From an uncultured Clostridia bacterium (GTDB taxonomy: Bacteria > Bacillota > Clostridia > Oscillospirales > Acutalibacteraceae), in contig CANQZA010000001.1 in the NCBI GenBank assembly GCA_947628175.1, positions 68,883 through 121,549 on the forward strand: a stretch of DNA of 52,667 nt, in the 5' to 3' direction. Shown piece by piece: positions 37,677-52,667 of the stretch. The translations under genes and the position numbers were made by a program. The notes under the pieces are model-generated. The model was not told the DNA's origin and did not search any database. It was given only the letters and a program-made list of their open reading frames with translations. The first letter of the stretch is position 1; each line of letters opens with the position of its first letter.

Positions 37677-38822
37677 CTAACGCATATTGTATTCAAACAT
37701 AATATCAAGCATATTATAACAGTCTTGGCTTATATCATATACCTGTGCATTTTCGTCTGAAATATAATAATATTTATTTTCTTCATAAATAATTCTTCCT
37801 TTAACGCGGTAAAAAATTCCGCTTTCGTCGTATGCGAGTATCCGTGCATCGTAATAATTTTTATTTTCATCATACGAGAATCCGCTTTCAGACAACCGAA
37901 CGCAATCCACCATATTTTTGATCTGCCTGTTTGCCTCAACAACATACTCTTTTCCGCCCATACCCTTGAGCGCGCAGGCATAGCCGTGTTCTTGAAAATG
38001 GTCTATTAAGCTTTTATAATAATCATATTTTTCCTCAAGAACATAGTAACGCGGGTATTTGCTTTTATCATGCGTTTTCAAATAAATCAGTTCATTGTTT
38101 TTCACATTATCTATTTCATATATGGAAAACCGATGGAATATCGGCAACTCATCAGAAAATATATATTTAAACTCTACGATTTCATCATCTGTTTTCACAT
38201 GACAACCTTTTATCTCAATCGGAATGTACCGCTGTGAATAAAGCTCTATATGAGACCCGCCGGATTCAATAAACGCATACCCTGTCGGTGTTCCGATATA
38301 AAACAAATCTATCCATTCGTGCCCCGCGAACAAAACCGCGGCCGCAACTATTACGGCAATCAGAATTCTGTATTTCTTTTTGCTTTTCTGATAGACAAGC
38401 CGATATGCCGCATTGCTGTCGTTTTCATTTTCAACCGAGAGCGATTTAATGTAGTCAATATTTTCAAGCTTGCCGCAAAAATCCTCAAGGTTTTGCGGAT
38501 GAATATTCCTGATGGATATCAGATCGTCGGTAAGCTTTTGGTTTTGCGCGTTATCATGCTCCATTTTTTCAAGATGCGAGACAAGAATTGAATCAAAATC
38601 AGAAAAATCGGTATAAAGCGTTTTAATATCGTTGAGGGAAAAATTATATTTTCTCAAAAGCATTATCTGCTTTAAACGGGTTACATCCTTTTCGCTGAAA
38701 TTAAAATTTCTTCTGCCGGCATAATTTTCATTATAGCTTGGCAGCAAAAGTCCGCTGCTTATATAGAATCTTATTGTCCTGTCCTGCAAGCCTGTTTTTT
38801 CACAGAGTTCTTTCATTTTCAT
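37677..38822 (-). CDS. Membrane-anchored MerR-family transcription regulator
   Basis: A 381-residue protein. Residues about 1-70 form the MerR winged helix (KMKELCEKTGLQDRTIRFYISSGLLLPS, GRRNFNFSEKDVTRLKQIMLL), followed by a coiled-coil dimer helix (about 75-110). A single membrane helix lies at about 152-168 (ILIAVIVAAAVLFAGHEW), after a lysine-rich stretch. The last 210 residues would be outside the cytoplasm and hold few recognisable motifs. It could therefore bind DNA from the membrane and sense an external signal, unlike soluble MerR proteins. GGAGG lies 8 nt before the ATG. It is co-transcribed with the four-helix protein and has its own dyad promoter. Confidence 0.85.
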   Translation of the reverse strand: MKMKELCEKTGLQDRTIRFYISSGLLLPSYNENYAGRRNFNFSEKDVTRLKQIMLLRKYNFSLNDIKTLYTDFSDFDSILVSHLEKMEHDNAQNQKLTDDLISIRNIHPQNLEDFCGKLENIDYIKSLSVENENDSNAAYRLVYQKSKKKYRILIAVIVAAAVLFAGHEWIDLFYIGTPTGYAFIESGGSHIELYSQRYIPIEIKGCHVKTDDEIVEFKYIFSDELPIFHRFSIYEIDNVKNNELIYLKTHDKSKYPRYYVLEEKYDYYKSLIDHFQEHGYACALKGMGGKEYVVEANRQIKNMVDCVRLSESGFSYDENKNYYDARILAYDESGIFYRVKGRIIYEENKYYYISDENAQVYDISQDCYNMLDIMFEYNMR

Positions 38823-38910: not shown

Positions 38911-38934
38911 AAGTCTGCCTTGCGCAGGCAGACA
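38905..38934 (-). terminator. Terminator after the response regulator gene
   Basis: Minus strand GTCTGCC / GGCAGAC (38927-38933 with 38913-38919) closed by TGCGCAA, followed by TTTTTTT. Confidence 0.85.
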
Positions 38935-38951
38935 TAATTTTTATTTTCATA

Positions 38952-39632
38952 TTATCTGAATTTATATCCTCTGCCCCATACGGTTTTTATATAGTCAGCA
39001 TTATTATCGGCATCCTTGAGCTTTTCACGCAGCCGATTTATATGAACCGTAAGGGTTGAGGTATCGCCGAGCGAATCGTAATTCCATACGGCTTGAAACA
39101 ACTCGTTTTTTGAAAGAACCCTGTCAGGCTGTGACGCCATCAGATAAAGAACATCAAATTCCTTTTTTGTAAGGCTGATCTCCTTTTCTCCGAGATAAAC
39201 CGTCCCCGAATGCTTATCAAGCCTCAGCTTATCAATGATTATGCTGTCATCGGCAGGTTTAGAAGTGAGCCGCATATAACGGTTGATGTGAGCCTTTACT
39301 CTTGCCACAAGCTCACCGGGTGAAAACGGTTTTACGATATAATCATCAGCCCCGAAGCCAAGTCCGCTGATTTTATCAAGCTCCTCTCTTTTTGCGCTTA
39401 CAAGCAAAATGGGAATATCCTTTTTTTCTCTTATTTTTCTGCATATATCAAAGCCGTTGATACCCGGAAGCATTATATCAAGTATCACAAGGTTGAAATC
39501 GCCGTTGAGTGCCAGTTCAAGACCTTGCCTGCCTTCTGAAGCCGCCTGCGTTTGAAAACCGCTTGCCTCAAGATAATCCCTTTCAAGCTCAAGAATATTT
39601 CTGTCATCCTCGATGATTAAAATTCTGCTCAT
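38952..39632 (-). CDS. OmpR-family response regulator
   Basis: A 226-residue two-component regulator. The receiver domain (about 1-118) has the acidic pair in IIEDD, phospho-acceptor Asp52 (VILDIMLPG) and Lys in VKPFSPGEL. The winged-helix output domain (about 130-225) ends YIKTVWGRGYKFR, typical of OmpR/PhoB proteins. It starts 4 nt inside the histidine kinase stop (ATGA overlap), so the pair is translationally coupled. Targets are unknown; the divergent VTC-CotH cluster 200 bp upstream of the kinase is the nearest candidate. Confidence 0.95.
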   Translation of the reverse strand: MSRILIIEDDRNILELERDYLEASGFQTQAASEGRQGLELALNGDFNLVILDIMLPGINGFDICRKIREKKDIPILLVSAKREELDKISGLGFGADDYIVKPFSPGELVARVKAHINRYMRLTSKPADDSIIIDKLRLDKHSGTVYLGEKEISLTKKEFDVLYLMASQPDRVLSKNELFQAVWNYDSLGDTSTLTVHINRLREKLKDADNNADYIKTVWGRGYKFR

Positions 39633-41137
39633 TTAATCATTTCCTCCTTGGGCAATGAAATAAATATGGATAAACCTGCGTTCTCATTGCTGTTTGCCCA
39701 AATAAAACCGCCGTGCAGCTCAATAATCTGTTTGCATACGGACAATCCCAGCCCTGAGCCCTCTGAAACCTTTGACCTTGCGGGATCAGCCCTGTACATA
39801 ATATCAAAAATTTTGGATATACTCTCGCGGTCCACGCCTATACCGTTATCGGATATTTCAAGTATAACAGAACTTTCATATTCATTCAAGGTCATTTCAA
39901 CTCTGCCTTTAACATCCTCGCGCGTATATTTGATACAATTGGAAATAATATTGCCTATCACGCGTGCAAATCTGTCCGTGTCGACCGAAATTTCCGTATT
40001 CTTTGCACAGTTAATTTTGTATGAGAAGCTGAAATCCGCCTTTTCAAGCACTGCACTGATTTCCTCGGCACAATCGCTGAAAAATGCCACCGCGTTCACA
40101 TTATTTTTGTTCAAGCGATAACTGCTCAGTTCCATCCTTGATACCGTCAACAAATCATCAAGTATCCGTTCCGTATCATCTATTGAGGAACAGATGGTTT
40201 TGATATATTTCATCTGCTTTTGCGGTGAATCTGCAATTCCGTCAAGAAGTCCCTGGGCATAGCCTTTTGCGCTCGTGAGCGGTGTTCTCAGATCGTGGGC
40301 AATTCCGGCAACAAGCGCCTTACGCTGTTCATCAGCCTTATTCTGTTGTTCTATTGACTGCTTAAGCCGCGCCCTCATTTTATTGAAGCTGTCCACCGTT
40401 CTGCCGAGCTCGTTTGTGGACTTGTATTCTATTTTATAATCAAGATTTCCCCGCGCAATTTCGTCGGCACCCCGTTCTATTTTCTTTATCGGGGACACAA
40501 TGGTTTTTGATGTTATAAACGACAAAACTGTAATGGATACAATAAATAAAAGCACAATGATAAGCACGATGATTCCCGTTCTTCCCAGAAGCAGATTCCT
40601 CAGCTCATAGACGCTTATGCGTCCCGAAGCATCGTTTACCGTATAGTCGTTATTTACTATGACAACTCTGTAACGCCCTTCCGGCGAATCGGTATGATTT
40701 ACGATAACAAGACCGTTTCCTGAAAAGTAATTGATATTCCTGTCGTTGTCAATTCTTACAATTCTGTTTGCCTTTTCAAGCACATCTCCTCCGTTTTTTG
40801 TGGAGTAAAAATACTTTCCGTCGCACTCTATATATATAAGCGAATTAAGCCTTTCAAGAGGTGCGACAAAGCCCTGTATACTCCTGAGCTTTTTCTCGCT
40901 GCTGTCGTCCCCCGCAAGTTCATTCGCAATTCCCGACACGGTCTGGTTCCACTGCATCTGATTCACGGTGCCGAATGTATTTGTCGTAACTGTTGAAAAG
41001 TTGAAATAAGACGCCGTCGTGCTTATGAGCAAAGGTGACGAAACGGCGATGATAACAAGCGGAATTACAATCGCCATTACAGACGAAATGATAATTCTCG
41101 TATTGATTTTGAGATTTTTTGAACTTCTTTTCTTCAT
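39629..41137 (-). CDS. Sensor histidine kinase
   Basis: A 502-residue membrane sensor. Two membrane helices (about 20-45 and 185-215) frame an extracellular sensing domain of about 140 residues, probably of dCache/PAS-like type. HAMP follows (about 215-265), then HisKA with His281 (GIAHDLRTPL) and HATPase_c with N-box SNCIKY, G1 DNGIGVD and G2 GSGLGLSVCK. The ATG at 41135-41137 has GGGAG upstream; a TTG five codons earlier is poorer. It is transcribed before its regulator. The signal is unknown. Confidence 0.95.
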   Translation of the reverse strand: MKKRSSKNLKINTRIIISSVMAIVIPLVIIAVSSPLLISTTASYFNFSTVTTNTFGTVNQMQWNQTVSGIANELAGDDSSEKKLRSIQGFVAPLERLNSLIYIECDGKYFYSTKNGGDVLEKANRIVRIDNDRNINYFSGNGLVIVNHTDSPEGRYRVVIVNNDYTVNDASGRISVYELRNLLLGRTGIIVLIIVLLFIVSITVLSFITSKTIVSPIKKIERGADEIARGNLDYKIEYKSTNELGRTVDSFNKMRARLKQSIEQQNKADEQRKALVAGIAHDLRTPLTSAKGYAQGLLDGIADSPQKQMKYIKTICSSIDDTERILDDLLTVSRMELSSYRLNKNNVNAVAFFSDCAEEISAVLEKADFSFSYKINCAKNTEISVDTDRFARVIGNIISNCIKYTREDVKGRVEMTLNEYESSVILEISDNGIGVDRESISKIFDIMYRADPARSKVSEGSGLGLSVCKQIIELHGGFIWANSNENAGLSIFISLPKEEMIK

Positions 41138-41171
41138 TTCATCTTCTCCCAAGCTGCTTTAGAGTAAGTAT

Positions 41172-41201
41172 ATTATATCATTCGTACGCCGCACATTACA
41201 A
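41172..41201 (-). promoter_or_regulatory. Promoter of the two-component operon
   Basis: Minus strand TTGTAA (41196-41201) and TATAAT (41172-41177), spacer 18 bp. Confidence 0.6.
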
Positions 41202-41271
41202 CATATAAATTGACACATAAATATACACCTGTTTTAAACCGATTTATTTTATATTAATAGACAAAATCATA

Positions 41272-41300
41272 TTGACTATTCCATAAATATAATTTATAAT
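41272..41300 (+). promoter_or_regulatory. Promoter of the VTC-CotH cluster
   Basis: TTGACT (41272-41277), 17-bp spacer, TATAAT (41295-41300), about 30 nt before the first start. It is divergent from the two-component promoter, with about 70 bp between them. Confidence 0.8.
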
Positions 41301-41332
41301 GAGTTGGGATTTAATATAGGGGAGGTATGATT

Positions 41333-42115
41333 TTGGCTATTGCGACCTTTAAGAGATACGAAAAGAAATATCTCATTACAAAAGAGAAACTTGACAAAAT
41401 CCTGCCTGTCCTGCTTGAGTATATGGAGCTTGACCCATACTGCCTCAACGGTAACGAATACAGAATTTACAGCATCTATTACGATACCGACAATCACGAT
41501 GTTATCAGGCAAAACTCATCAAAACCCGTTTACAAGGAAAAAATGAGAATCCGCTCTTATTATGACCATAACGATCCTGAGGAAAAGGTTTTTATGGAAA
41601 TAAAAAAGAAATGTGAGGGGCAGGGAAACAAGCGCAGAATAAAAATAAAACTCAGGGAGGTTGAGCCCTTCGTTAACGAGGGAATTCTGCCTGAAACAAA
41701 AAATTACTTGTCTGCGCAGGTTGCCAAGGAGCTTCAGTATTATCTGAGTAAAAACAAAGTACATCCTGCGCTTTATGTACAGTATGACCGCCTTGCGCTT
41801 TTCGGCAAGGAGGATAAGGAATTCCGTATGACCTTTGACAGAAATGTCAGAACGAGAAGAACGCATTTCCGCTTCGGAGAAAGTGACGAGGACGAGCTCC
41901 TCCTCTCTGACGGGGAATACATAATGGAAATTAAAATTCTCGGCGCTATGCCGCTTTGGCTTACGCACCTTCTCAGTGAAAATGAGCTTTTCAGCCGCGG
42001 TTTTTCAAAATACGGCGTAAGATACAAGCGTGACGCGGAAAACAGGCGGCTTGCATATCATCTTACGGACAGCAATGCAAACGAAGTCGGCTTCGACTAT
42101 TTTTATCAATTTTAA
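41333..42115 (+). CDS. VTC-domain protein (polyphosphate polymerase-like tunnel enzyme)
   Basis: A 260-residue cytoplasmic protein of the VTC family, a triphosphate-tunnel fold that in yeast Vtc4 makes polyphosphate from ATP. Tunnel-lining charged motifs are visible: FKRYEKKYLI, IYYDT, EKMRIRSYY, VFMEIKKK, the long NKRRIKIKLRE, and MEIKILG near residue 205, with KYGVRYKR at the end. The TTG at 41333 is preferred: it is 7 nt from GGAGG and gives the MAI-TFKRYEKKY start seen in relatives, while an ATG at 41327 sits only 1-2 nt after the ribosome site. First gene of a five-gene plus-strand run; DUF4956 follows after 11 nt. The product and acceptor are unproven. Confidence 0.9.
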   Translation: MAIATFKRYEKKYLITKEKLDKILPVLLEYMELDPYCLNGNEYRIYSIYYDTDNHDVIRQNSSKPVYKEKMRIRSYYDHNDPEEKVFMEIKKKCEGQGNKRRIKIKLREVEPFVNEGILPETKNYLSAQVAKELQYYLSKNKVHPALYVQYDRLALFGKEDKEFRMTFDRNVRTRRTHFRFGESDEDELLLSDGEYIMEIKILGAMPLWLTHLLSENELFSRGFSKYGVRYKRDAENRRLAYHLTDSNANEVGFDYFYQF

Positions 42116-42126
42116 GGAGTATAACA

Positions 42127-42828
42127 ATGTCTGATTTCTTTTACAACCTAACCTCAGGTGAAGCAGCGTCATTAACTTGGCATGGTGTTCTTGAAACCCT
42201 GATTGCAGCAACTGCCGTCGGACTTATCATAAGCCTCATCTATCTCTTTACGCATAAAAAAGAGGGGTACAGTCAGGCATTCTGTGTGGCTCTTATTCTT
42301 CTTGCTCCCATTGTGGGAATGGTAATTCTTGTAATCGGCAATAATGTTGCCACGGCGTTCAGTCTTGCCGGCGCCTTTGCGCTTGTGCGTTTCAGAAGCG
42401 CGCCCGGCGATCCCAAGGATATTGCGTTTGTCTTTATGAGTGTAACAATGGGACTGACCTGCGGTCTCGGATACTGGATATGGGCAGTCATGGGCACGGC
42501 TATTCTGTGCGTAATTATACTCATTCTGCATTTCACAAACTATGCCGGCAAAAAGGGAGAACGGTTTGTACTCAGGATAACGGTTCCCGAAACGCTCAAT
42601 TATGTCGGCGCTTTTGACGAATGTCTGAATAAATACTGCAAATCCTTTAAAATGACACGCGTTAAAAGTGTTGATTTCGGCGCTCTTTTTGAAATCAGCT
42701 TTGATGTGGACATAAAGGATTCTAAACAAATCAGAGAAATGATAGACGACCTCAGAGCCATGAACGGAAATCTGAAAATTATGCTTTCCACGCCTGAGAC
42801 TCTCAACAGAAGCTTTCATTTTCAATAA
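42127..42828 (+). CDS. DUF4956 polytopic membrane protein
   Basis: A 233-residue protein with about four membrane helices in the first 145 residues and a soluble C-terminal domain. The family motif is FSLAGAFALVRFRSAPGDPKDIAFVF followed by a glycine-rich helix (MGLTCGLGY). DUF4956 proteins are often found next to VTC-domain proteins, and the pair are thought to act together at the membrane; the biochemical role is unknown. AAGGAG precedes the ATG, 11 nt after the VTC stop. A perfect hairpin follows, then the lipoprotein gene. Confidence 0.93.
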   Translation: MSDFFYNLTSGEAASLTWHGVLETLIAATAVGLIISLIYLFTHKKEGYSQAFCVALILLAPIVGMVILVIGNNVATAFSLAGAFALVRFRSAPGDPKDIAFVFMSVTMGLTCGLGYWIWAVMGTAILCVIILILHFTNYAGKKGERFVLRITVPETLNYVGAFDECLNKYCKSFKMTRVKSVDFGALFEISFDVDIKDSKQIREMIDDLRAMNGNLKIMLSTPETLNRSFHFQ

Positions 42829-42833
42829 TAATT

Positions 42834-42864
42834 TTTAAGGGAACGGTATGACTGTTCCCTTAAA
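42834..42864 (+). other. Hairpin between DUF4956 and lipoprotein genes
   Basis: TTTAAGGGAAC pairs perfectly with GTTCCCTTAAA (11 bp, 9-nt loop), without a U tract on either strand. It is more likely an mRNA stability or processing element than a terminator. It separates two cytoplasmic/membrane genes from three secreted ones. Confidence 0.6.
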
Positions 42865-42943
42865 GTATCTTATAACCACTTTTAAAAAATTCAATATGTT
42901 GATGTTTTTTCAACTTTTTCATCTATATTTAGGAGTTATCCAT

Positions 42944-44593
42944 ATGAATAGAAAAAAAGCTTTATGCATAATGACAGCAATATTCCTTATAAGCGGGATG
43001 ATTGCAGGCTGTACACACAGCGCAGATCCTGCCGTGGCAACCGAAATTGTCACCGTTACCGATAAAAGCGGAGACACCGTTACGCGAAAAGACGGAAAAG
43101 CGGTGACGGAAATAAAAAAAATAACCGAAAAGCAGACTGAAAAAAATTCGACAGCGCCGACAAAACAGAAAGCGTCCGGCGGAAAAACAACTTCTTCAGC
43201 ATCCGACACCTCTGCCGGCAATGCAGAAGAAAAAAATACTTCCGCCACCTCCTCCGGTACTAAACCATCCTCTGTTCCGGGCACTTCAAAGAAAACCGAA
43301 ACTACAAAAAAACCGAGCAGCACAGTCCCTAAATCTAAACCGAACCCTGAAACGAAGCCGACTGCTGCACCTGCCCCCGCGCCCATCTCCATCAAGCTTG
43401 AAAAAAATTCAAATGCGGACTGCTCCTCGGACAATGTTACCATCGGTATGGGAACCGTTCAAATTGACAAGGGCGGCAGCTATGTTATCACACAGGATAC
43501 AGGCAGCCAAAAGTGGCATGGGCAGATTATCGTAAAATTAAAAAACACAGAAAGTGCCGAATTAAGATTTGAAAATGTAAACATCTCAAACACAAGCCCC
43601 AACATAATAAAAATAATTGACACAAGCATAAAAACCGACAGGAGCTTTATTGAGGCTGAGGCAACAACGGGTACAAACAGCGACAATCAGCTCAAGGATG
43701 AAATGAAGCTTGTTTCAAAAAATGAGAAAGCGCCCAATGTGGACCTGTCTTTCCCTACAGGAACAAAGAGCACCTTTGAAACCTCCGCAAACAGCTTTAC
43801 AGGCGTTGTATATAACGAATCAAAGCTCACCATACGCGGCAACGGAGAAGTCCGTTTCACTGCTTCAAGAAATGCAAATAATGTAATCTGTTCAACAAAG
43901 AGCCTTACTATAAAAAATGTAACCGCAAATCTTACCACATCGGATGCTGATGTCAATTCATCACTCTCGTCCGCAAAAGGTATTTTCTCATATTCAAGAG
44001 TGGATATTGAGAGCGGAAGACTGTACATCAGATCAAATGGCGACTGCATAAGATGCGATGATTTTAATCTTTACCACGGTAATGTTGATTTGAACTCGGG
44101 AGCGGCCGACGGAATTGACGCCGACGATTCCATATGTATTTACGATGGCAACATAAATTCGATTGCGCTTAAAAAATCCTGTTTCAAAGTGCGCCGTGTA
44201 AACAATCAGGAGGCACTTCGTGAAGGAGACAATACAATCAAGAAAGAAGACGGAATAACCGACAAAGCAAAACACACATTTAAAATAAACGGCGGTATTG
44301 TAAGGGGTGAAAGCAAAAACATCACAACTGTTCAGTCCTCAACACAGCCGAGCATAACCTGCCGTTCGGTAAAAGCTCCGAACTCGACTGAGGCAAAAAA
44401 GCTGATTTCGTTTAAGATAACAGGAAACGGAATCCAGGAAAAGCACTCCTATAACAAATGTATAAAATTTATCTATTCATCAAATGAAATAAGAAAAAAC
44501 GGCGACTACACGGTTGCATCACAGGGATATGAAAGCACAAAGGTTACTTTTAAAGGAAATGTCGGTGATGCAAGAATCGTGGCAAACAGATAA
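42944..44593 (+). CDS. Carbohydrate-binding beta-helix lipoprotein (Cthe_2159-like)
   Basis: A 549-residue lipoprotein: signal peptide with lipobox ISGMIAGC (Cys23), a Ser/Thr/Pro/Lys-rich linker (about 45-145), and a beta-helix domain (about 150-549). The latter repeats short strands such as LTIRGNGEVRF, LTIKNVTANL, IFSYSRVDIESGRLYI, DDFNLYHGNVDLNSG and DDSICIYDGNINS, as in Cthe_2159, a calcium-dependent acid-sugar/cellulose-binding protein of Clostridium thermocellum (from memory). AGGAG lies 8 nt before the ATG at 42944; an earlier ATG at 42848 lies inside the preceding hairpin. It would sit on the outer membrane face and bind a glycan, tethering or templating for the CotH protein next to it (inference). 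Confidence 0.88.
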   Translation: MNRKKALCIMTAIFLISGMIAGCTHSADPAVATEIVTVTDKSGDTVTRKDGKAVTEIKKITEKQTEKNSTAPTKQKASGGKTTSSASDTSAGNAEEKNTSATSSGTKPSSVPGTSKKTETTKKPSSTVPKSKPNPETKPTAAPAPAPISIKLEKNSNADCSSDNVTIGMGTVQIDKGGSYVITQDTGSQKWHGQIIVKLKNTESAELRFENVNISNTSPNIIKIIDTSIKTDRSFIEAEATTGTNSDNQLKDEMKLVSKNEKAPNVDLSFPTGTKSTFETSANSFTGVVYNESKLTIRGNGEVRFTASRNANNVICSTKSLTIKNVTANLTTSDADVNSSLSSAKGIFSYSRVDIESGRLYIRSNGDCIRCDDFNLYHGNVDLNSGAADGIDADDSICIYDGNINSIALKKSCFKVRRVNNQEALREGDNTIKKEDGITDKAKHTFKINGGIVRGESKNITTVQSSTQPSITCRSVKAPNSTEAKKLISFKITGNGIQEKHSYNKCIKFIYSSNEIRKNGDYTVASQGYESTKVTFKGNVGDARIVANR

Positions 44594-44610
44594 AAAGAGG
44601 AGGCAAAATT

Positions 44611-47600
44611 ATGAAAAAGGCAATAAAAAAACCGCTTTCACTGCTTCTGGTTGCGGCAATACTGCTGACAACACTGCTTATCTCACCGATAAGCGCCGGT
44701 GCGGCAGAGAGCCCGCTTGATCTTGAGGGCTCATCGCTCAACATATGGGCAGACGCGGAAAATGTACTGTCACAAAATGATGTAACAAATTTTACATCCG
44801 GAAACAAGCTTGCCGTTCTCGGAGGAATTGCTCCCTTCAAAAGAAGTACAAGCTCACAACAATATTATCTTTTTCTGCCTTCAACAGCGGACTGCACCTC
44901 CCTTAAATTCTGGTTTGACGGTACTGCTTCAATAAACAACATGCCCATTACAAGCGGTGTGCCCACAGATGCGCTTTCAAGCATAAATGAGGGCGGAACA
45001 ATGGTTGGGTTCACCTTTTCGATCAATGGCACAAACTATTCTGTTTCGGCAGTAAAAAGCGGTGATATCGCAGCAGTATATATTGATACAAATTCAGGCT
45101 CGCTGAGCACGATTACGGGAAACCGTCTGCAAAGTGATCACACGGGAGAAGAACCGGGTTCCATCATGGTTGTTCAGCCGGACGGCACCGTTGATTATAT
45201 GGGAATTATGGAAAAAATGTCGGGACGAGGCAACGGCACATGGAACTACAGCAACAACAAAAACCCGTATAACTTCAAGCTTGCCAAATCAACATCACTC
45301 CTTGGAATGGGAGCGGCAAAAAAATGGTGCCTGCTTGCAAATGTAAGCGATTCATCTCTTGTGAAAAACCAGCTCACCTATGATTTTGCGAAATACATAG
45401 GAATAAAGTATCAGCCTATCTGCAAACCATGCGACCTTTATGTCAATCAGCAGTACTTGGGCTCATATCAGCTTTCCGAAAAAGTTGAAATCAAATCAAA
45501 CAGAATTGATATAACAGACGCATATGAAAATCTTGAAATAGCAAACGGAACTACCGATCCTGCTACGGGTATTGTCTTACCGGCAGATCTGTCGAATGTT
45601 TCCGCAGGCTCATATAACGCAAGCGGCGCTTCAACAACCGGATCAACAGCAACCTTCGGTCAGGGAGTCGGAAACAGGAAGTATTCAACATCCATTAAAG
45701 ATCCGTCAGATTACACGGGCGGATATCTGTATGAGCTTGAAATCAGCAACAGATGGTATGAGGAAAATGCAGGCTTTAGCGCATACAACAGACAGGGCTG
45801 GGTAATAAAAAGTTGTGATGTCGCAACAAAGAATATGACGGACTACAGCTATGACCTGCTGTACGCCTTAGGCTCTTCCATCTATAACGGAGGCAATGTT
45901 CCCAGCACCTCTACCACAACCAAATGCCCTAACGCAAAGACAGTTATCACTGCTATGACATCAACAGGCACTTCGACAAAAACAATAACAAACCCTGCCC
46001 CTGCCACGCAGTATCAGGGCAAAAGATGGAGTGCTCTTCTTGATGCCGATTCAGCAGTAAAATATTACTGGACGCAGGAATTCTTTAAGAATATGGACTC
46101 CTCCACCTCATCAACATATTTCTACAAGGATGCAGACGCTATAGATGCAAAGCTTTATGCGGGTCCTATGTGGGATATGGACAACTCTATCGGATATGAC
46201 AGAGGCAGTGAGTCGCGCTGGGGCTATAGCTGGACATCAGCAGACGGCTGGTATACAAAAAATACCCGTATTTACCGCTGGAGATGTGAGGACAGCAATA
46301 CCGGTTATAAAACGGATGATGAATCCCCTCTCTCTTTTTACGGAACTCTTTCATCAAAATGTACTGACTTCTGGTCAATGGCAGAAGATTACTGGTATTG
46401 GTTAATTTCCCCTGCCGTTGAAATAATCAAAGGTAACGCGGTTGACAAAACAGGAACGCTCAAATCGGCACAGGAGTATATCACAACTGTTTCAAAGAGC
46501 GGTTACATGGATGCTGTGCGCCTTGATATAAATAACAGTTCGTATGATACACAAAATCATATCACCAAGATGACAAACTGGTTTACAGACCGACAGGCTT
46601 GGATAGATACACAGATTCAGAAAACAGATATAGGCAGCGCCAATATCTATTCCATCCCGGATCAGGCTTTCACCGGCTCAGAGATTAAACCTGAGCTCTC
46701 GGTTTCATATTATGACACATATCTCTCCAACATTCCGCTTGTTGAGGGCAGGGATTACACAGTATCCTACGACAACAATGTGAATGTGGGAACAGCCACG
46801 GTAACACTTACCGGCATAAACGGATACACAGGAACAAAAACGGCAAATTTCAGTATCCTTTCAGATTCAATTGACGGTTATACGCTTACAATAGACAGCA
46901 CTGCATACAAGAATTCCGTTATAAACGCTGCGCTTGTAAACACAAACGGCAATCCTGTTCACTCGGGCGTTACATATCAGTGGTACAAAAATTCCGTTGC
47001 AATAGACGGTGCTTCGGATTCGTCATATACTGTTTCAGCCGACGATGCCGGCTCTGTATTAACAGTCACTGCAACAGGTGACGGGACAAACCTTACCGGC
47101 AGCGTGACATCAAACGAATGTACCGTGCTTGAGGGAGAACGGCCTTCATCCTATTCAAAAACAATTGCGTCATGGGATTACGACTACACAGCCGACAGCG
47201 GCGCGCTTATAACATCCGACCCTGCCGGAACAGATTTTTACTATGCTGCAACAAGCGGTGAAAATATGCGTTTGTCCAATCTTTACGCAAGTGTAAACGG
47301 TAAGGATAATGCAAAAATCAAGTGGTCAGGCAATGCTGACTTATACAGCAACGAGTCAACAACGGCAGCATCTGATCAGACGCCTGTAATGGGAACATCA
47401 AAAACCGATTTACTTGCGTGGAACGAATGGCCTTATTTTGAAACAACAGTGTCCACTGCAGGATTTGAAAACATCAAATTCAGTGCAAAGCTCGGAGGTA
47501 CAAAAAAAGCTCCGCGTGACTGGAAGCTTCAGTACAGCCTTGACGGAACAACATTTAAAGATATAGAGGGCGCACAGTTTTCAATTACCAAAAACAAGGC

Positions 47601-49854
47601 AATGCAGCCTGCGTTTGACAATGTACTTCTCCCTGCCGAGTGCAGCAATCAGCGCACTGTATATATTAGGATGACTGTTGCGGCAAATATTGCCATTAAC
47701 GGTCTTGATCCTGTCATAAATCAGCTCAGCGGTGACGCGGCTGTCAATAACATTCATATTACAGGCTCCTCTCTGAGTGTAATCACCTCTCTTTACGAGC
47801 CGACCATTTCGCCTGAAAGCGGCACAAAAATATTCAGCGACAATCCTGTTGCAATAACGGATAACAACGGCGGAGCAGATATCTATTATACCGTTAACGG
47901 CTCAGAGCCTACGCTTTACACCGGTTCATTTATGCCGTTTGACACAAAAACCGCAAAAACGGGAGATTCCGTAACTATAACGGCTTATGCAAAATTCAAC
48001 GATATCACAAGTGATATCGTAACAGCCGAATACGCTTTTGCAGGCGTTGATATCCTATGCTTCTCCTATGACACATATAGCACCAATATAACATCAGGCG
48101 CCGTTCAGTCAACCGGCGGTGTTTATGACCAGAGTGGTAAAATGACTGCATACACGGACGGTTCAACACAATATGTCCCGCTTTGGAGAGAGGATAACAA
48201 ATCCTTCAGTGTATCGCCTGACGACGGCACATTCTGGACTGAAGATGCCGGCTTCACATACAAAGTAAGTACTGCCGGATATGAAAATATTAATTTCACC
48301 GCAAAGGCATATACAACTTTACAGGGACCCAAGAGCGTAACGCTTCAGTATAGCACCGACGGCATACATTATTACAATGTCAAATCCGATGTTATTCTGC
48401 CTGCGGCAGGAACGCTTGAGCAAATCTTTCTCACAGTTCCTCTCCCCGCTGCCTGCGACAATCAGGAAGTTCTTTATATACGCCTGGCAACAACAGAAAA
48501 TCTCACATCAAGTGACACCGTTCTTCACAACAATGAGTCAAAAGGCAATCTTTATGTAAATGATGTCATTATAGGCGGTGAGGACACGGGCGCGCTTAAA
48601 ATGCCGTATACAAACAAGTCCACAAACTATTTCGGCATAAACGGAATCATTCATTATACCAGCCCTGATTCGGCAGATATACAATATGTTGTTCTTGACA
48701 GGAACAACCGAGTTGTTCAAAACGGAACATATAATGATCTGACAGGTATTCAGCTTTCTTCCGTGACCGGCTTCAATCCGTATTCGCCGGGACCTTACAA
48801 TGTGCTTGTTTGGGCAGGCGATGATGATGATCAGAGCCTTGTAAATAGGAAAACATATTATTACAAGGGAGACAGCATTGTTAAATTCAACTACAACGGC
48901 TCAACCAATCTTTTCAATAACTATGTTTCCTCTGATTTCCTTTCTGTCAATAACACCTCGGGCGCAAACAGCGGAACACTTTCAATGTATCCTGACTCAA
49001 ATACCGCCGCGCTGCTATCCTACACGGGAACATACGGTGTAAAGGTTAGCTGGGACGCCGCCAATCCGTTTACGGCAACAAAAAAACTTGACAACCCTGA
49101 CGGCAACGGATACTGGCTCATCGAAACAAGCACCAAAGGATATGAAAATCTTACCCTTAACCTTGAACAGCTCAGCTCAAACAAAGGTCCGCGCGACTGG
49201 GGTATTGCCTACAGCCTGGATGCAAACAGCTATACTTATGTTGAAAATTCCAATGCAAGGGCAATAAGCAATGATGCTTCCCCCGATACCGTTGAAACAT
49301 ACGGCAATCTGCCGCTTCCTGCCGATTGCGATAATGCAGATAAGCTTTATATCAAGGTATTTATTAACGGCGGTGAGGGCGTTGATTCAACAGAGCTTGA
49401 TCTGGCATTAAAGGGCAACACAGGCATAAACGGTATAGAAATAAGCGGAACGAAAATCCCCGAAAAGTACAGCCTTACAATCAATACAACTGTCCTTGAA
49501 ACAAAAGACGGCGTATCGGGCTCCATTCCTTTCGGCGATATAAATGTTTATGTAAACGGTGCGTTCAGCGGTAAATCCGATTCAGACGGCATCCTCACCA
49601 TTGACAATCTTTTGCAGGGCAGCACATACGATATTAAGTTTGATGGCAGAAATATTGCTGAAAAAACAATTACAAAAACAATGTCTGCCAGTGAGGCCAT
49701 CAATGTGCCGGTGCTGATATTTGATGTTAACGGAGACGGTTATATCAATGCAAAGGACTATGCAATGATAAATAAAGAGAATGCCTACGCAACATCAAAG
49801 CAATATTTCTCAAACTTTATCAATACAAAAACGAGCGAATTCAAATATGAATAA
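44611..49854 (+). CDS. Giant secreted CotH-family protein with beta modules and half-dockerin tail
   Basis: A 1747-residue exported protein. A signal peptide (about 1-30) precedes the CotH domain (about 180-670): RGNGTWNY, KKWCLLANVSDSSLVKNQLTYDFA, DLYVNQQYLGSYQLSEKVEI and MWDMDNSIGYDRG (CotH is an atypical Fam20-like kinase fold, family knowledge). Then a bacterial beta module (about 690-750; VSYDNNVNVGTATVTLTGINGY), an Ig-like stretch (about 770-845), three copies of a roughly 180-residue beta module (about 850-1053, 1145-1324, 1424-1614) and, between copies one and two, a chitobiase C-terminal-like domain (about 1065-1140; IYYTVNGSEPTLYTG). A carboxypeptidase-like fold (about 1620-1695) and a single dockerin loop (DVNGDGYINAKDYAMINK, about 1707-1725) end it. 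GAGGAGG precedes the ATG, 17 nt after the lipoprotein stop. Confidence 0.92.
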   Translation: MKKAIKKPLSLLLVAAILLTTLLISPISAGAAESPLDLEGSSLNIWADAENVLSQNDVTNFTSGNKLAVLGGIAPFKRSTSSQQYYLFLPSTADCTSLKFWFDGTASINNMPITSGVPTDALSSINEGGTMVGFTFSINGTNYSVSAVKSGDIAAVYIDTNSGSLSTITGNRLQSDHTGEEPGSIMVVQPDGTVDYMGIMEKMSGRGNGTWNYSNNKNPYNFKLAKSTSLLGMGAAKKWCLLANVSDSSLVKNQLTYDFAKYIGIKYQPICKPCDLYVNQQYLGSYQLSEKVEIKSNRIDITDAYENLEIANGTTDPATGIVLPADLSNVSAGSYNASGASTTGSTATFGQGVGNRKYSTSIKDPSDYTGGYLYELEISNRWYEENAGFSAYNRQGWVIKSCDVATKNMTDYSYDLLYALGSSIYNGGNVPSTSTTTKCPNAKTVITAMTSTGTSTKTITNPAPATQYQGKRWSALLDADSAVKYYWTQEFFKNMDSSTSSTYFYKDADAIDAKLYAGPMWDMDNSIGYDRGSESRWGYSWTSADGWYTKNTRIYRWRCEDSNTGYKTDDESPLSFYGTLSSKCTDFWSMAEDYWYWLISPAVEIIKGNAVDKTGTLKSAQEYITTVSKSGYMDAVRLDINNSSYDTQNHITKMTNWFTDRQAWIDTQIQKTDIGSANIYSIPDQAFTGSEIKPELSVSYYDTYLSNIPLVEGRDYTVSYDNNVNVGTATVTLTGINGYTGTKTANFSILSDSIDGYTLTIDSTAYKNSVINAALVNTNGNPVHSGVTYQWYKNSVAIDGASDSSYTVSADDAGSVLTVTATGDGTNLTGSVTSNECTVLEGERPSSYSKTIASWDYDYTADSGALITSDPAGTDFYYAATSGENMRLSNLYASVNGKDNAKIKWSGNADLYSNESTTAASDQTPVMGTSKTDLLAWNEWPYFETTVSTAGFENIKFSAKLGGTKKAPRDWKLQYSLDGTTFKDIEGAQFSITKNKAMQPAFDNVLLPAECSNQRTVYIRMTVAANIAINGLDPVINQLSGDAAVNNIHITGSSLSVITSLYEPTISPESGTKIFSDNPVAITDNNGGADIYYTVNGSEPTLYTGSFMPFDTKTAKTGDSVTITAYAKFNDITSDIVTAEYAFAGVDILCFSYDTYSTNITSGAVQSTGGVYDQSGKMTAYTDGSTQYVPLWREDNKSFSVSPDDGTFWTEDAGFTYKVSTAGYENINFTAKAYTTLQGPKSVTLQYSTDGIHYYNVKSDVILPAAGTLEQIFLTVPLPAACDNQEVLYIRLATTENLTSSDTVLHNNESKGNLYVNDVIIGGEDTGALKMPYTNKSTNYFGINGIIHYTSPDSADIQYVVLDRNNRVVQNGTYNDLTGIQLSSVTGFNPYSPGPYNVLVWAGDDDDQSLVNRKTYYYKGDSIVKFNYNGSTNLFNNYVSSDFLSVNNTSGANSGTLSMYPDSNTAALLSYTGTYGVKVSWDAANPFTATKKLDNPDGNGYWLIETSTKGYENLTLNLEQLSSNKGPRDWGIAYSLDANSYTYVENSNARAISNDASPDTVETYGNLPLPADCDNADKLYIKVFINGGEGVDSTELDLALKGNTGINGIEISGTKIPEKYSLTINTTVLETKDGVSGSIPFGDINVYVNGAFSGKSDSDGILTIDNLLQGSTYDIKFDGRNIAEKTITKTMSASEAINVPVLIFDVNGDGYINAKDYAMINKENAYATSKQYFSNFINTKTSEFKYE

Positions 49855-49869
49855 CGAAGGAGGCAAAGT

Positions 49870-51063
49870 ATGAAGAAAAAATTATTTTCGTTGTTTATTG
49901 CAAATGTAATCCTTCTGTCATGCTTTGCCTTTTCCCTGTCGGCATACGGAAAAACGCAGCAGCTTATTCTTGACACAAAAATGACCTATGAGACTGACGG
50001 TGCTGATGACAAGGGGATCTTCACCTATACTCCGGACGCATCGGGTACATTCTCCTTTTTGTCATATAATGTTCCTGCAAGCGAGGTATATCTTTATGTA
50101 AAAGAGATTGACCCGCAAACAGGTGAAAAAAAATATGTTCAGCTTGCATACTCAAACAGCGATCCCGATTATGAAAAAAATAATCACAACCGACAGCAGT
50201 TCTGCCTTACTTATCATCTCAACCGAGGTGTTACATACTACTTTCACGCAGGCTGGCTGTTTGAGAGCAGAACATCGGGAACAATGACCGTTATGCTTAC
50301 CTGCAATGAATATGATGATAAGTGCATTGAAAACATCACTGTTTCGTGTCCTGTAACTGCAAAGCTCAATGTTTATGCGGACGGCAATTGGATGACAGAC
50401 GCAAACGGCGAAAGATATTACTACTATAACCCTTCAAAGATTATCAGTAATATGACGGTAACGGTTTATTATTCCACGGGCGAGGTGTCCTCCGTTACCG
50501 GAAAAACGGAAATTGACGGCTACACAATCAGATATCTGAACGATCAGCTCAATACGCACTGGTATCCCAAGGAACATCCAAACTACACTGCAAATATCAT
50601 TACCGTAAAAATCCTTGATGTAACGGCAGATTACAATGTTGACATTATTTCAAGCGCAAGGTATCCCGTTCAGGGCGTAGTCAAATCCATGAACGGCGAA
50701 TATATTAAAGAAGCGCAGATTTACTGTGGCTCTGAGCTTCTGGCAACATCAAGCGCCACGGGTTACTTTTCCTTCAGTTATCCTGCGGGTCAATATACTC
50801 TAACGGTCAAAGCGCCGGGTGCGCTTGCAAGAACGGCTACCATCATTGTAAGCACAACAGCGAAAGACAACAACTATGTTTCACAACCCATCAATCTTTA
50901 CACCTGCGACTATGTTCAGGATGGCATAATCAATACAAAGGATTACGCAAAAATTAAAAAGCTCACAGATGATGCTCTGATGAAAAAGGATATCGAGCAG
51001 TACAGCTCGGCTATACACTACACATCCAAAAATTATGAAGATCTCAATATCTATCCTAAATAA
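49870..51063 (+). CDS. Secreted protein with carboxypeptidase-like domain and half-dockerin
   Basis: A 397-residue exported protein: signal peptide (about 1-26), a beta-rich region of about 200 residues of unknown type (IFTYTPDASGTFSFLSYNV, TYYFHAGWLFESRTSGTMTVML, resembling bacterial pre-peptidase C-terminal or Ig folds), then a carboxypeptidase regulatory-like domain (about 268-330; VQGVVKSMNGEYIKEAQIYC, GYFSFSYPAGQYTLTV). It ends with a dockerin-like loop, CDYVQDGIINTKDYAKIKK (about 345-365). AAGGAGG lies 15 nt after the CotH stop. Last gene of the cluster. It lacks a catalytic signature, so it is likely a structural or binding partner. Confidence 0.82.
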   Translation: MKKKLFSLFIANVILLSCFAFSLSAYGKTQQLILDTKMTYETDGADDKGIFTYTPDASGTFSFLSYNVPASEVYLYVKEIDPQTGEKKYVQLAYSNSDPDYEKNNHNRQQFCLTYHLNRGVTYYFHAGWLFESRTSGTMTVMLTCNEYDDKCIENITVSCPVTAKLNVYADGNWMTDANGERYYYYNPSKIISNMTVTVYYSTGEVSSVTGKTEIDGYTIRYLNDQLNTHWYPKEHPNYTANIITVKILDVTADYNVDIISSARYPVQGVVKSMNGEYIKEAQIYCGSELLATSSATGYFSFSYPAGQYTLTVKAPGALARTATIIVSTTAKDNNYVSQPINLYTCDYVQDGIINTKDYAKIKKLTDDALMKKDIEQYSSAIHYTSKNYEDLNIYPK

Positions 51064-51149: not shown

Positions 51150-51416
51150 CTATTTTTCAATCAAATCATTTTCGTCAAGCATTTTAATAAACTTTTCTAT
51201 GTCTTTTCTTGCGGTATCGGCATCAATCTCATACTCATCCGTTACCATTTTAACGGCGTCATCAACCGTTATATCATCGCAAAAACAATCCCAGAAGAAT
51301 GAGCCGCTCTGATTAAGCGTTATCATCCCGTTAAATTCTCTTGTCGTTTTTCCCACAGGAACAACGATTATCGATCCTGCGATTTCTCTTTTGGCAAAGC
51401 CTTCTTTAATCTTCAT
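51150..51416 (-). CDS. PqqD-family peptide chaperone-like protein
   Basis: An 88-residue protein: MKIKEGFAKREIAGSIIVVPVG, then LNQSGSFFWDCFCDDITVDDAVKMV and a helical end (ADTARKDIEKFIKMLDENDLIE), the order of elements in PqqD/RRE domains that present leader peptides to radical-SAM or other modifying enzymes. The ATG at 51414-51416 lies downstream of a good promoter; a longer ORF start would overlap the -35. No radical-SAM enzyme or precursor gene is within the window. Confidence 0.82.
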   Translation of the reverse strand: MKIKEGFAKREIAGSIIVVPVGKTTREFNGMITLNQSGSFFWDCFCDDITVDDAVKMVTDEYEIDADTARKDIEKFIKMLDENDLIEK

Positions 51417-51447
51417 AAATATCCGTACCTCTTTAATTAGTATATTA

Positions 51448-51476
51448 ATTTTAACAAAAATATACTCCGCTTTCAA
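51448..51476 (-). promoter_or_regulatory. Promoter of the PqqD-like gene
   Basis: Minus strand TTGAAA (51471-51476) and TAAAAT (51448-51453), spacer 17 bp, about 35 nt upstream of the ATG. Confidence 0.7.
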
Positions 51477-51575: not shown

Positions 51576-52667
51576 TTATTCGGCTTCATCTCTGCGCTTT
51601 TTTGACGCCAAAATCATGAACGCCGCGCCCACAAAGATTCCCACTGTTGAGGCAGTATAGCCCGCAGCTCCCGTGTCAGGGCTTTTTTTGGAATAATTCT
51701 TTTTTGAATTGTTGGTTTTGGATGTGGTATCGGTTGAAGGATGGCTTTGAGCAGTCTCTGTTTCAAATTCAACCTCTGCGTTTACAACCGTGTCTTTCTC
51801 ATCCCATACAGCCTTTGCCTCGTCACTTATGAATGTAACGGTGAATGTTCCGTCATTATTCTCAGCAACCTTGTAATCCTCACCAAGCACCAGTTTGTCA
51901 TTTCCGGTTTCAATACTCCAGCCTGTAAGTGCGCCGCTGCCAACATATGTGAAAGTAACGATATACTCGTTTTCAGAATCTGTTTCATATGTGATATTGG
52001 ACTCTGCCGCTTTGCCGTTTACCGTAAGGGTCAATTTCTTTCCGCTGTGTGATGCCGTTGTCTCAATAACAGGTATTTCTTTCGTTTCCTTTTGATGACA
52101 TACGGAACATTCTCTCTCGCTGAGTCCTTTTTCTATCGCTGTGGCTTCTTTAACCGTATACCATTCACCAAAGCTGTGTCCTGTCGCAGGCACTTCCTCC
52201 TGCTTTATAAAAATTTCACCGCAAACAGAACAGTGGCTTCCCTCTGTAAGTCCTGTTTCTGTACAGGTGGGAGGTACTGCCTCATCTATTACTTCCGTAT
52301 GACCTGTTGCAGGAATCTCCTCCTGTGCTTTTAAGATCTCATTACATACCGAGCAGTGCTTGCCCTCCGTAAGTCCTGTTTCTGTACAGGTGGGAGGTAC
52401 TGCCTCGTCTATTACCTCTGTATGACCGTTTGCAGGAATTTCCTCCTGTGCTTTTAAGATCTCATTACATACCGAGCAGTGCTTGCCCTCCGTAAGTCCT
52501 GTTTCTGTACAGGTAGGTGCTTTTGCCTTGTCTATTACCTCTGTATGACCATTTGCAGGAATCTCCTCCTGAGTTTTTAAGGTTTCACCGCAAACGGAAC
52601 AGTGGCTTCCCTCCATAAGTCCTGTTTCTGTACAGGTAGGTGCTTTTGCCTCATCTATTACCTCTGT
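51576..52667 (-). CDS. Repeat-rich, sortase-anchored surface protein, 5' end cut by window edge
   Basis: The frame is open to the right edge, so the N-terminus and signal peptide are outside. What is visible: four tandem 41-residue repeats encoded by 123-bp units (each has [16 protein letters not shown] and QEEIPA), a degenerate fifth copy, then a beta domain ([21 protein letters not shown]) and an anchoring tail: KSPDTGA, a membrane helix ([16 protein letters not shown]) and a KKRRDE positive end. The SPDTG pentapeptide is an LPxTG variant for sortase. The paired Cys in each repeat suggest metal binding or disulfides. Its function is unknown, probably surface adhesion. Confidence 0.88.
52131..52667 (-). 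repeat. Tandem 123-bp coding repeats
   Basis: Start-to-start distances of the conserved TCCTGTTTCTGTACAG stretch are 123 bp each (52251, 52374, 52497, 52620), encoding 41-residue units at high nucleotide identity. The three central copies are nearly identical at DNA level, so copy number may vary among strains or be misassembled. Confidence 0.85.

Follow-up and report, generated by a model that had tools for sequence, protein, structure and literature searches.

A VTC-DUF4956 gene pair that goes with secreted CotH and Cthe_2159 proteins in Clostridia, and a locus that unites both

The stretch of DNA considered here, 52,667 nucleotides from an uncultured Clostridia bacterium (contig CANQZA010000001.1) and referred to as the window, carries a cluster built around genes for a VTC-type polyphosphate polymerase and a DUF4956 membrane protein. 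The safe result of the analysis is a genetic rule, that the VTC-DUF4956 pair is accompanied by members of the secreted CotH family, the secreted Cthe_2159 family, or both, together with the finding that the window is the sole locus with both partners among 89 pair loci in an evenly drawn sample. The source assembly comprises 2.24 Mb in 121 contigs and is 98% complete, and the Pfam scan covered 20 window proteins, including neighbors on both sides of the cluster. The seven open reading frames of a preliminary description, made from the sequence alone, were all recovered from the window sequence where it had placed them, two reading leftward and five rightward, as follows.

38952..39632, minus strand: OmpR/VanR-type response regulator (Response_reg and Trans_reg_C over the Pfam cut-off)
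39629..41152, minus strand: membrane histidine kinase (HAMP, HisKA, and HATPase_c over the Pfam cut-off)
41327..42115, plus strand: VTC-type polyphosphate polymerase (PF09359, 161 bits; profile match to Vtc4, 3g3q)
42127..42828, plus strand: DUF4956 membrane protein with five helices and a ferredoxin/ACT-like domain (PF16316, 65 bits)
42848 (likely start 42944) to 44593, plus strand: Cthe_2159-type lipoprotein (PF14262, 62 bits; AGGAG and lipobox)
44611..49854, plus strand: secreted CotH kinase-fold protein of 1747 residues, with a long beta-rich tail and one C-terminal calcium-loop-like motif (78 bits, over the Pfam cut-off)
49870..51063, plus strand: small secreted CarboxypepD_reg protein, accessory, with one degenerate C-terminal F-hand-like motif (PF13620 over the cut-off)

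The VTC protein, of 262 residues, consists of the VTC domain only (161.2 bits against a curated Pfam cut-off of 23), and its true start is probably the TTG at 41333, which lies 7 nucleotides downstream of GGGAGG and is where most relatives start. Its best profile match is the polymerase Vtc4 (3g3q, 1.5e-15). Residues K14, R74, R76, and E201 are invariant in 35 sequences and align with K200, R264, R266, and E426 of Vtc4 in 3g3q, the E426 stretch through a weak second alignment; these catalytic residues suggest that the window enzyme would synthesize polyphosphate. Identification as a subunit of a eukaryotic VTC complex was rejected, since the chain has neither an SPX nor a Vtc transmembrane domain by Pfam. 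What is shared with the yeast complex is the set of Vtc4 catalytic tunnel residues and a putative synthesis beside a membrane part, but the yeast protein is one polypeptide, whereas the window has no SPX, its membrane protein is MgtC-like, and export would be by analogy. PPK1 has no match in the window's assembly. The same genome has a second, distant VTC (27% identity) near a contig end (L113, G000:C115, 2699-3370), the downstream region of which is cut off; no second CotH match is present in the assembly.

The structure model of the DUF4956 protein has a pLDDT of 78, and the C-terminal domain of the protein is similar to ferredoxin-like domains, ACT among them. Comparison with MgtC by hhalign gave 96.5% over 194 columns, spanning the membrane and C-terminal domains, as against 5.6% for a reversed control and at most 0.3% for four shuffles. 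Pfam gives no MgtC match for the window protein and weak ones for 17 of 53 relatives (best E 0.0047); by profile comparison, DUF4956 is a distant MgtC homologue. Arg residues R88 and R90, in a predicted helix (74-91), are invariant. The channel of the yeast VTC complex is described as lined by basic residues (PMC9911596; papers cited by PMC number are cited from those parts of their text that were available).

The lipoprotein exceeds the PF14262 cut-off of 25.8. It probably starts at 42944 rather than 42848, since a Shine-Dalgarno sequence and a lipobox are read there. Export was judged by a simple hydropathy rule for the N terminus and lipoboxes by a simple pattern; of 25 Cthe_2159 frames in fetched VTC loci, 23 begin with a hydrophobic stretch and 16 carry a lipobox by these rules. 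When lipoproteins too divergent for a single-sequence match were examined with Pfam, five of six were Cthe_2159 and one had no match, and a VTC-adjacent member (L046) matches 4peu at 2.6e-38. The window protein thus shares PF14262 and its lipoprotein character with the Cthe_2159 family (4peu, 4phb), which is known as a binder of cellulose and pectin but is here tied to VTC-DUF4956. In several Clostridium species (L043, L047, L049-L052, L055), the Cthe_2159 gene does not follow VTC-DUF4956 but lies divergent from it.

The CotH protein keeps the CotH fold. Its catalytic and metal-binding aspartates are conserved: among 33 distant rows, taken from 60 fetched CotH loci, D496 is present in 32 and D522 in all 33, and both are present in all 10 window-type rows; which of them would correspond to D228 of Bacillus subtilis is assigned by position. 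The key residues of VTC and CotH, whose loss in homologues would have spoken against the preliminary description, are retained, and the window protein may act as a kinase. It differs from the Bacillus CotH spore-coat kinases in being secreted, in its large beta-rich tail, and in its place beside VTC-DUF4956; a hydrophobic stretch near the N terminus is found in 52 of the 60 loci by the hydropathy rule (15-residue mean of at least 1.6). By eye, three mutually related beta-rich repeats occupy residues from about 850 to 1600, after the kinase domain and before the C-terminal motif, and between two of them Pfam gives Fn3_assoc and CHB_HEX pieces only. The C termini of the CotH protein and of the last protein carry a single calcium-loop-type motif each, half a dockerin motif. 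The earlier label "half-dockerin" nevertheless had to be dropped, and with it a cellulosome-like dockerin-cohesin pairing: Dockerin_1 scores 19.1 bits in CotH against a cut-off of 22.9 and covers one third of the model (positions 36-54 of 57); Pfam gives no dockerin for the last protein at E 0.1; and no cohesin was matched at E 0.001 in the assembly.

Related VTC loci came from a scan of genome contigs and comprise the best 80 of 330 relatives, of which L003-L042 (40 loci) are close. The order VTC, DUF4956, Cthe_2159 lipoprotein, giant CotH is kept in every one of these related loci in which 4.1 kb or more follows VTC (32 of 32, counted by hand from a table; in L041, the contig end truncates VTC and DUF4956 comes from a separate reading). 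The five-gene order that had been proposed holds far beyond the strain for its first four genes, but the last gene is present in only 11 of 26 loci with room. The proposed surface system next to a divergent two-component pair is in keeping with the data; the kinase-regulator pair occurs in 21 of 33 loci with room, and it and the last gene are optional parts of the cluster.

The rule itself rests on 147 genomes drawn evenly from the window's class. Before filtering, DUF4956 was found in 76 of them, VTC in 76, CotH in 62, and Cthe_2159 in 59. Domain pieces within one reading frame were taken as one count, and the class counts omit DUF4956 places below the cut-off (G137, G143, second places of G047 and G076), short partial VTC places (G155, second place of G044), CotH in G063 (below the cut-off) and G102 (26.2 bits, over the cut-off but partial), Cthe_2159 in G076 (below the cut-off), and weak or second Cthe_2159 places in genomes already counted (e.g. 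G059, G092, G103, G127, G135, and G172). After filtering, 74 genomes have both VTC and DUF4956 and one has VTC alone. CotH and/or Cthe_2159 is present in 74 of 74 pair genomes and in 38 of 38 of their families, and both are somewhere in the genome in 34 of the 74. CotH occurs in 56 of 74 pair genomes as against 4 of 73 others (6 of 73 if G063 and G102 are retained) and Cthe_2159 in 52 of 74 as against 6 of 73 (Fisher 1e-19 and 2e-15, respectively, values which are not those of independent samples because the genomes are related to each other). Within 8 kb of the 89 VTC-DUF4956 loci, CotH is found at 41, Cthe_2159 at 26, and both at one, the window, so that 68 of the 89 have a nearby partner; distances were measured between match starts, and loci cut by contig ends can fall among those with neither. 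Some genomes carry two pairs, one beside CotH and the other beside Cthe_2159 (G059, G171). Outside the even sample, all window-type relatives have both partners, as does L082 by profiles, and CotH is somewhere in 31 of 37 genomes reached through more distant VTC loci. In the set of 14 named controls, the pair goes with Cthe_2159 in Bacteroides ihuae and with CotH in Corynebacterium glutamicum and Methanosarcina acetivorans, and B. subtilis has CotH without DUF4956 or VTC.

A second class of 198 genomes was searched for CotH and DUF4956 only, which occur in 63 and 62 genomes, respectively, and together in 48. The prediction, set beforehand, was that genomes with DUF4956 and without CotH carry Cthe_2159. 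This was so in 12 of 14, the two misses being DUF4956 matches below the cut-off, and in 10 of 10 genomes with DUF4956 over the cut-off, Cthe_2159 lies within 2 kb of it on the same contig. For comparison, Cthe_2159 was found in 1 of 17 genomes with neither family (17 of 121 were checked) and in 1 of 14 with CotH only (14 of 15; G233, weak, was omitted). In a VTC tree of 89 of 100 rows (L096 and ten near-copies omitted; an uneven sample, rows L043-L082 having been gathered by likeness to the window VTC; a "quick" search, with long branches at, for example, L133 and L169), 23 of 30 CotH-adjacent rows form one group with 99% SH-aLRT, and CotH adjacency takes 5 changes as compared with a shuffled mean of 25.4 (0 of 500 shuffles as low); two pairs of CotH-labeled rows are the same locus entered twice. 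The window group lies on the opposite side, among rows of the Cthe_2159 type, and this grouping of its VTC suggests that the window locus may have arisen from one of the Cthe_2159 type by gain of CotH.

The three-gene CotH-VTC-DUF4956 set has already been described beside Pel genes, as an accessory set with a polyphosphate polymerase (PMC7112168, PMC12345266). In streptococci and clostridia, this cassette comprises cotH, the polymerase, DUF4956, and DUF4832 (SIR_1594-1591 of Streptococcus intermedius), and SIR_1592 is likewise described as MgtC plus ACT in these two papers. It shares with the window a VTC, a DUF4956, and a secreted CotH together, but the window has an inserted Cthe_2159 lipoprotein and a CotH of 1747 residues, and its 20 scanned proteins include no Pel family and hence no contiguous pel biosynthesis genes. 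The available text of PMC12345266 states that the three-gene arrangement is absent outside Pel loci. In L128, the set adjoins genes for a chitin-synthase-like GT2, a HEAT protein, and a protein of 729 residues; the three downstream neighbors scanned gave no Pel family, and the locus resembles Clostridium perfringens NELoc-2 (VTC, "tubulin/FtsZ," CotH, HEAT, chitin-synthase-like; PMC2879425). NELoc-2 also has a VTC, a membrane protein, and a CotH, and its membrane protein of 222-226 residues after VTC is presumably DUF4956; it differs in being a GT2 synthase locus and in having no Cthe_2159 in the part of its gene table that was available. A link of VTC or DUF4956 to Cthe_2159 was not found in print among open-licence PMC papers, a search outside which the original Clostridium thermocellum structure paper lies.

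The reading that we tentatively prefer, at somewhat less than an even chance, is that VTC makes polyphosphate, which DUF4956 passes across the membrane to dedicated secreted partners that hold or use it. VTC would polymerize phosphate from ATP in the cytoplasm. Most of the partners look exported and VTC has no signal, which would place VTC inside and DUF4956 between; the membrane partner and the analogy with yeast point to export, with DUF4956 replacing the transmembrane part of yeast VTC and delivering the chain to the outer face. Reception outside is suggested by the exported partners: the beta-helix Cthe_2159 lipoprotein may hold the polyanion, and CotH may phosphorylate proteins or glycans at the surface, for which the chain might supply the phosphate. 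In the window lineage, both partners would act from one cluster beside a two-component system, possibly under its control. The cluster thus hints at an undescribed use of polyphosphate outside the cell. Such a reading gives an unexplained pair a simple rule, with the two locus types united in the window lineage; it would place a bacterial VTC at the cell surface instead of in storage, and it gives the Cthe_2159 proteins a context besides plant-cell-wall binding and offers a handle on the phosphate source of kinases outside the cytoplasm. A distinctly improbable extension is that polyphosphate is a general extracellular commodity, with Cthe_2159 proteins as its surface receptors and core-paired CotH proteins taking phosphate from the chain and not from ATP; if true, there would be extracellular phosphorylation without extracellular ATP. 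The timing of CotH action relative to spore release and its ATP source are listed as unanswered in PMC7821199.

Several observations weigh against polyphosphate export to secreted partners. The presence of PPK1 does not track the pair in either direction (31 of 74 pair genomes, 21 of 73 others), 21 of the 89 pair loci have no nearby partner, and only 44 of 109 CotH places and, among the matches listed, 27 of 73 Cthe_2159 places are near a VTC. The ligands reported for Cthe_2159 are cellulose and polygalacturonate, polyphosphate not being among them in the available part of PMC6712302. Each of the three genes has been deleted in S. intermedius (PMC12345266): the DUF4956 mutant showed less aggregation and more Pel, the CotH mutant less aggregation and less Pel, opposite shifts in Pel, and no change is given for the VTC mutant in the part available. 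Among the 60 CotH loci inspected, those from genomes without the pair also have hydrophobic N termini (first class, 4 of 4; second class, 13 of 14), and this, with the lack of a reported VTC phenotype, argues against a dependence of CotH on the pair everywhere.

A rather unlikely alternative, close to the acidic-glycan system of the preliminary description and in line with the Pel papers, is that the core and its secreted proteins act on a polysaccharide outside the cell by tuning, phosphorylating, or anchoring it, polyphosphate being secondary. The S. intermedius phenotypes of the DUF4956 and CotH mutants in Pel and aggregation are in its favor, as are the Pel genes adjoining CotH-VTC-DUF4956 in L114 (PelG, a group-1 glycosyltransferase, and DUF2194), the chitin-synthase-like GT2 protein in L128, and the long beta-rich tail of CotH, which could bind carbohydrate. 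However, there is no glycosyltransferase in the cluster and no polysaccharide synthase among the 20 scanned window proteins, and the earlier claim was not borne out on this point; the test is a partial one, made on the window and not on the neighbors of Cthe_2159-type loci. It is unlikely, on balance, that the core is a phosphate/ATP-status regulator in which VTC acts on short phosphates and DUF4956 acts in MgtC fashion on phosphate uptake or cell energy, so as to tune adhesin-like secreted proteins encoded close by. Although the MgtC homology, the ACT/ferredoxin-like domain, and the VTC deletion with no reported effect would fit such a role, the VTC tunnel retains polymerase-type residues, its profile matches Vtc4 first, and a general regulator need not accompany one or the other, or both, of two secreted families in 74 of 74 genomes. 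That the genes have no more in common than a niche and a regulon in surface-protein-rich lineages, with no shared biochemical step, is very unlikely. In its favor, CotH and Cthe_2159 are often multi-copy and mostly away from VTC, and the two-component pair and last gene are optional. Against it, about 40% of copies have a VTC within 8 kb, the genomes being 1-5 Mb in size; the VTCs next to CotH group together on the tree; and the adjacency prediction held in the second class.

The intergenic signals of the cluster, and a further regulatory gene seen in relatives, are as follows.

38913..38933, minus strand: terminator-like hairpin 3' of the response regulator (8-bp stem, then TTTTTTT)
41172..41201, minus strand: promoter-like site facing the kinase gene (TTGTAA-18-TATAAT, 10/12; consensus match only)
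41272..41300, plus strand: promoter-like site of the VTC gene (TTGACT-17-TATAAT, 11/12; consensus match only)
42833..42865, plus strand: hairpin between DUF4956 and the lipoprotein gene (15-bp stem)
L006 9164-9802, L010 9169-9780, L011 8522-9154, L028 2196-2825 (minus): in relatives, TetR-family gene located upstream of the kinase gene

Candidate sites for the facing promoters that had been proposed are thus present in both directions, but the region contains 30 promoter-like sites as against a shuffled mean of 29.7, which is no excess. The short gaps described between the rightward genes need one correction, in that the likely lipoprotein start widens the gap after DUF4956 to 115 nucleotides, containing the hairpin, a possible attenuator or processing site. 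Of 30 junctions folded, 14, counting that of the window, have a similar hairpin after DUF4956 as judged by eye; in other junctions of those folded, the lipoprotein gene directly follows DUF4956. Between the histidine kinase and VTC genes, 5 of 6 loci inspected have a frame of about 200 residues, TetR-type in 4 of 4 scanned, and the window has none. Beyond the cluster, a MerR-type regulator (37677-38822) has an unusually long C-terminal part in which, by eye, a membrane helix lies. A surface protein (51576-52667), whose gene adjoins a lone PqqD-family gene (51150-51476), has repeated units of 13 protein letters and weakly matches an NPXTG/LPXTG-like anchor.

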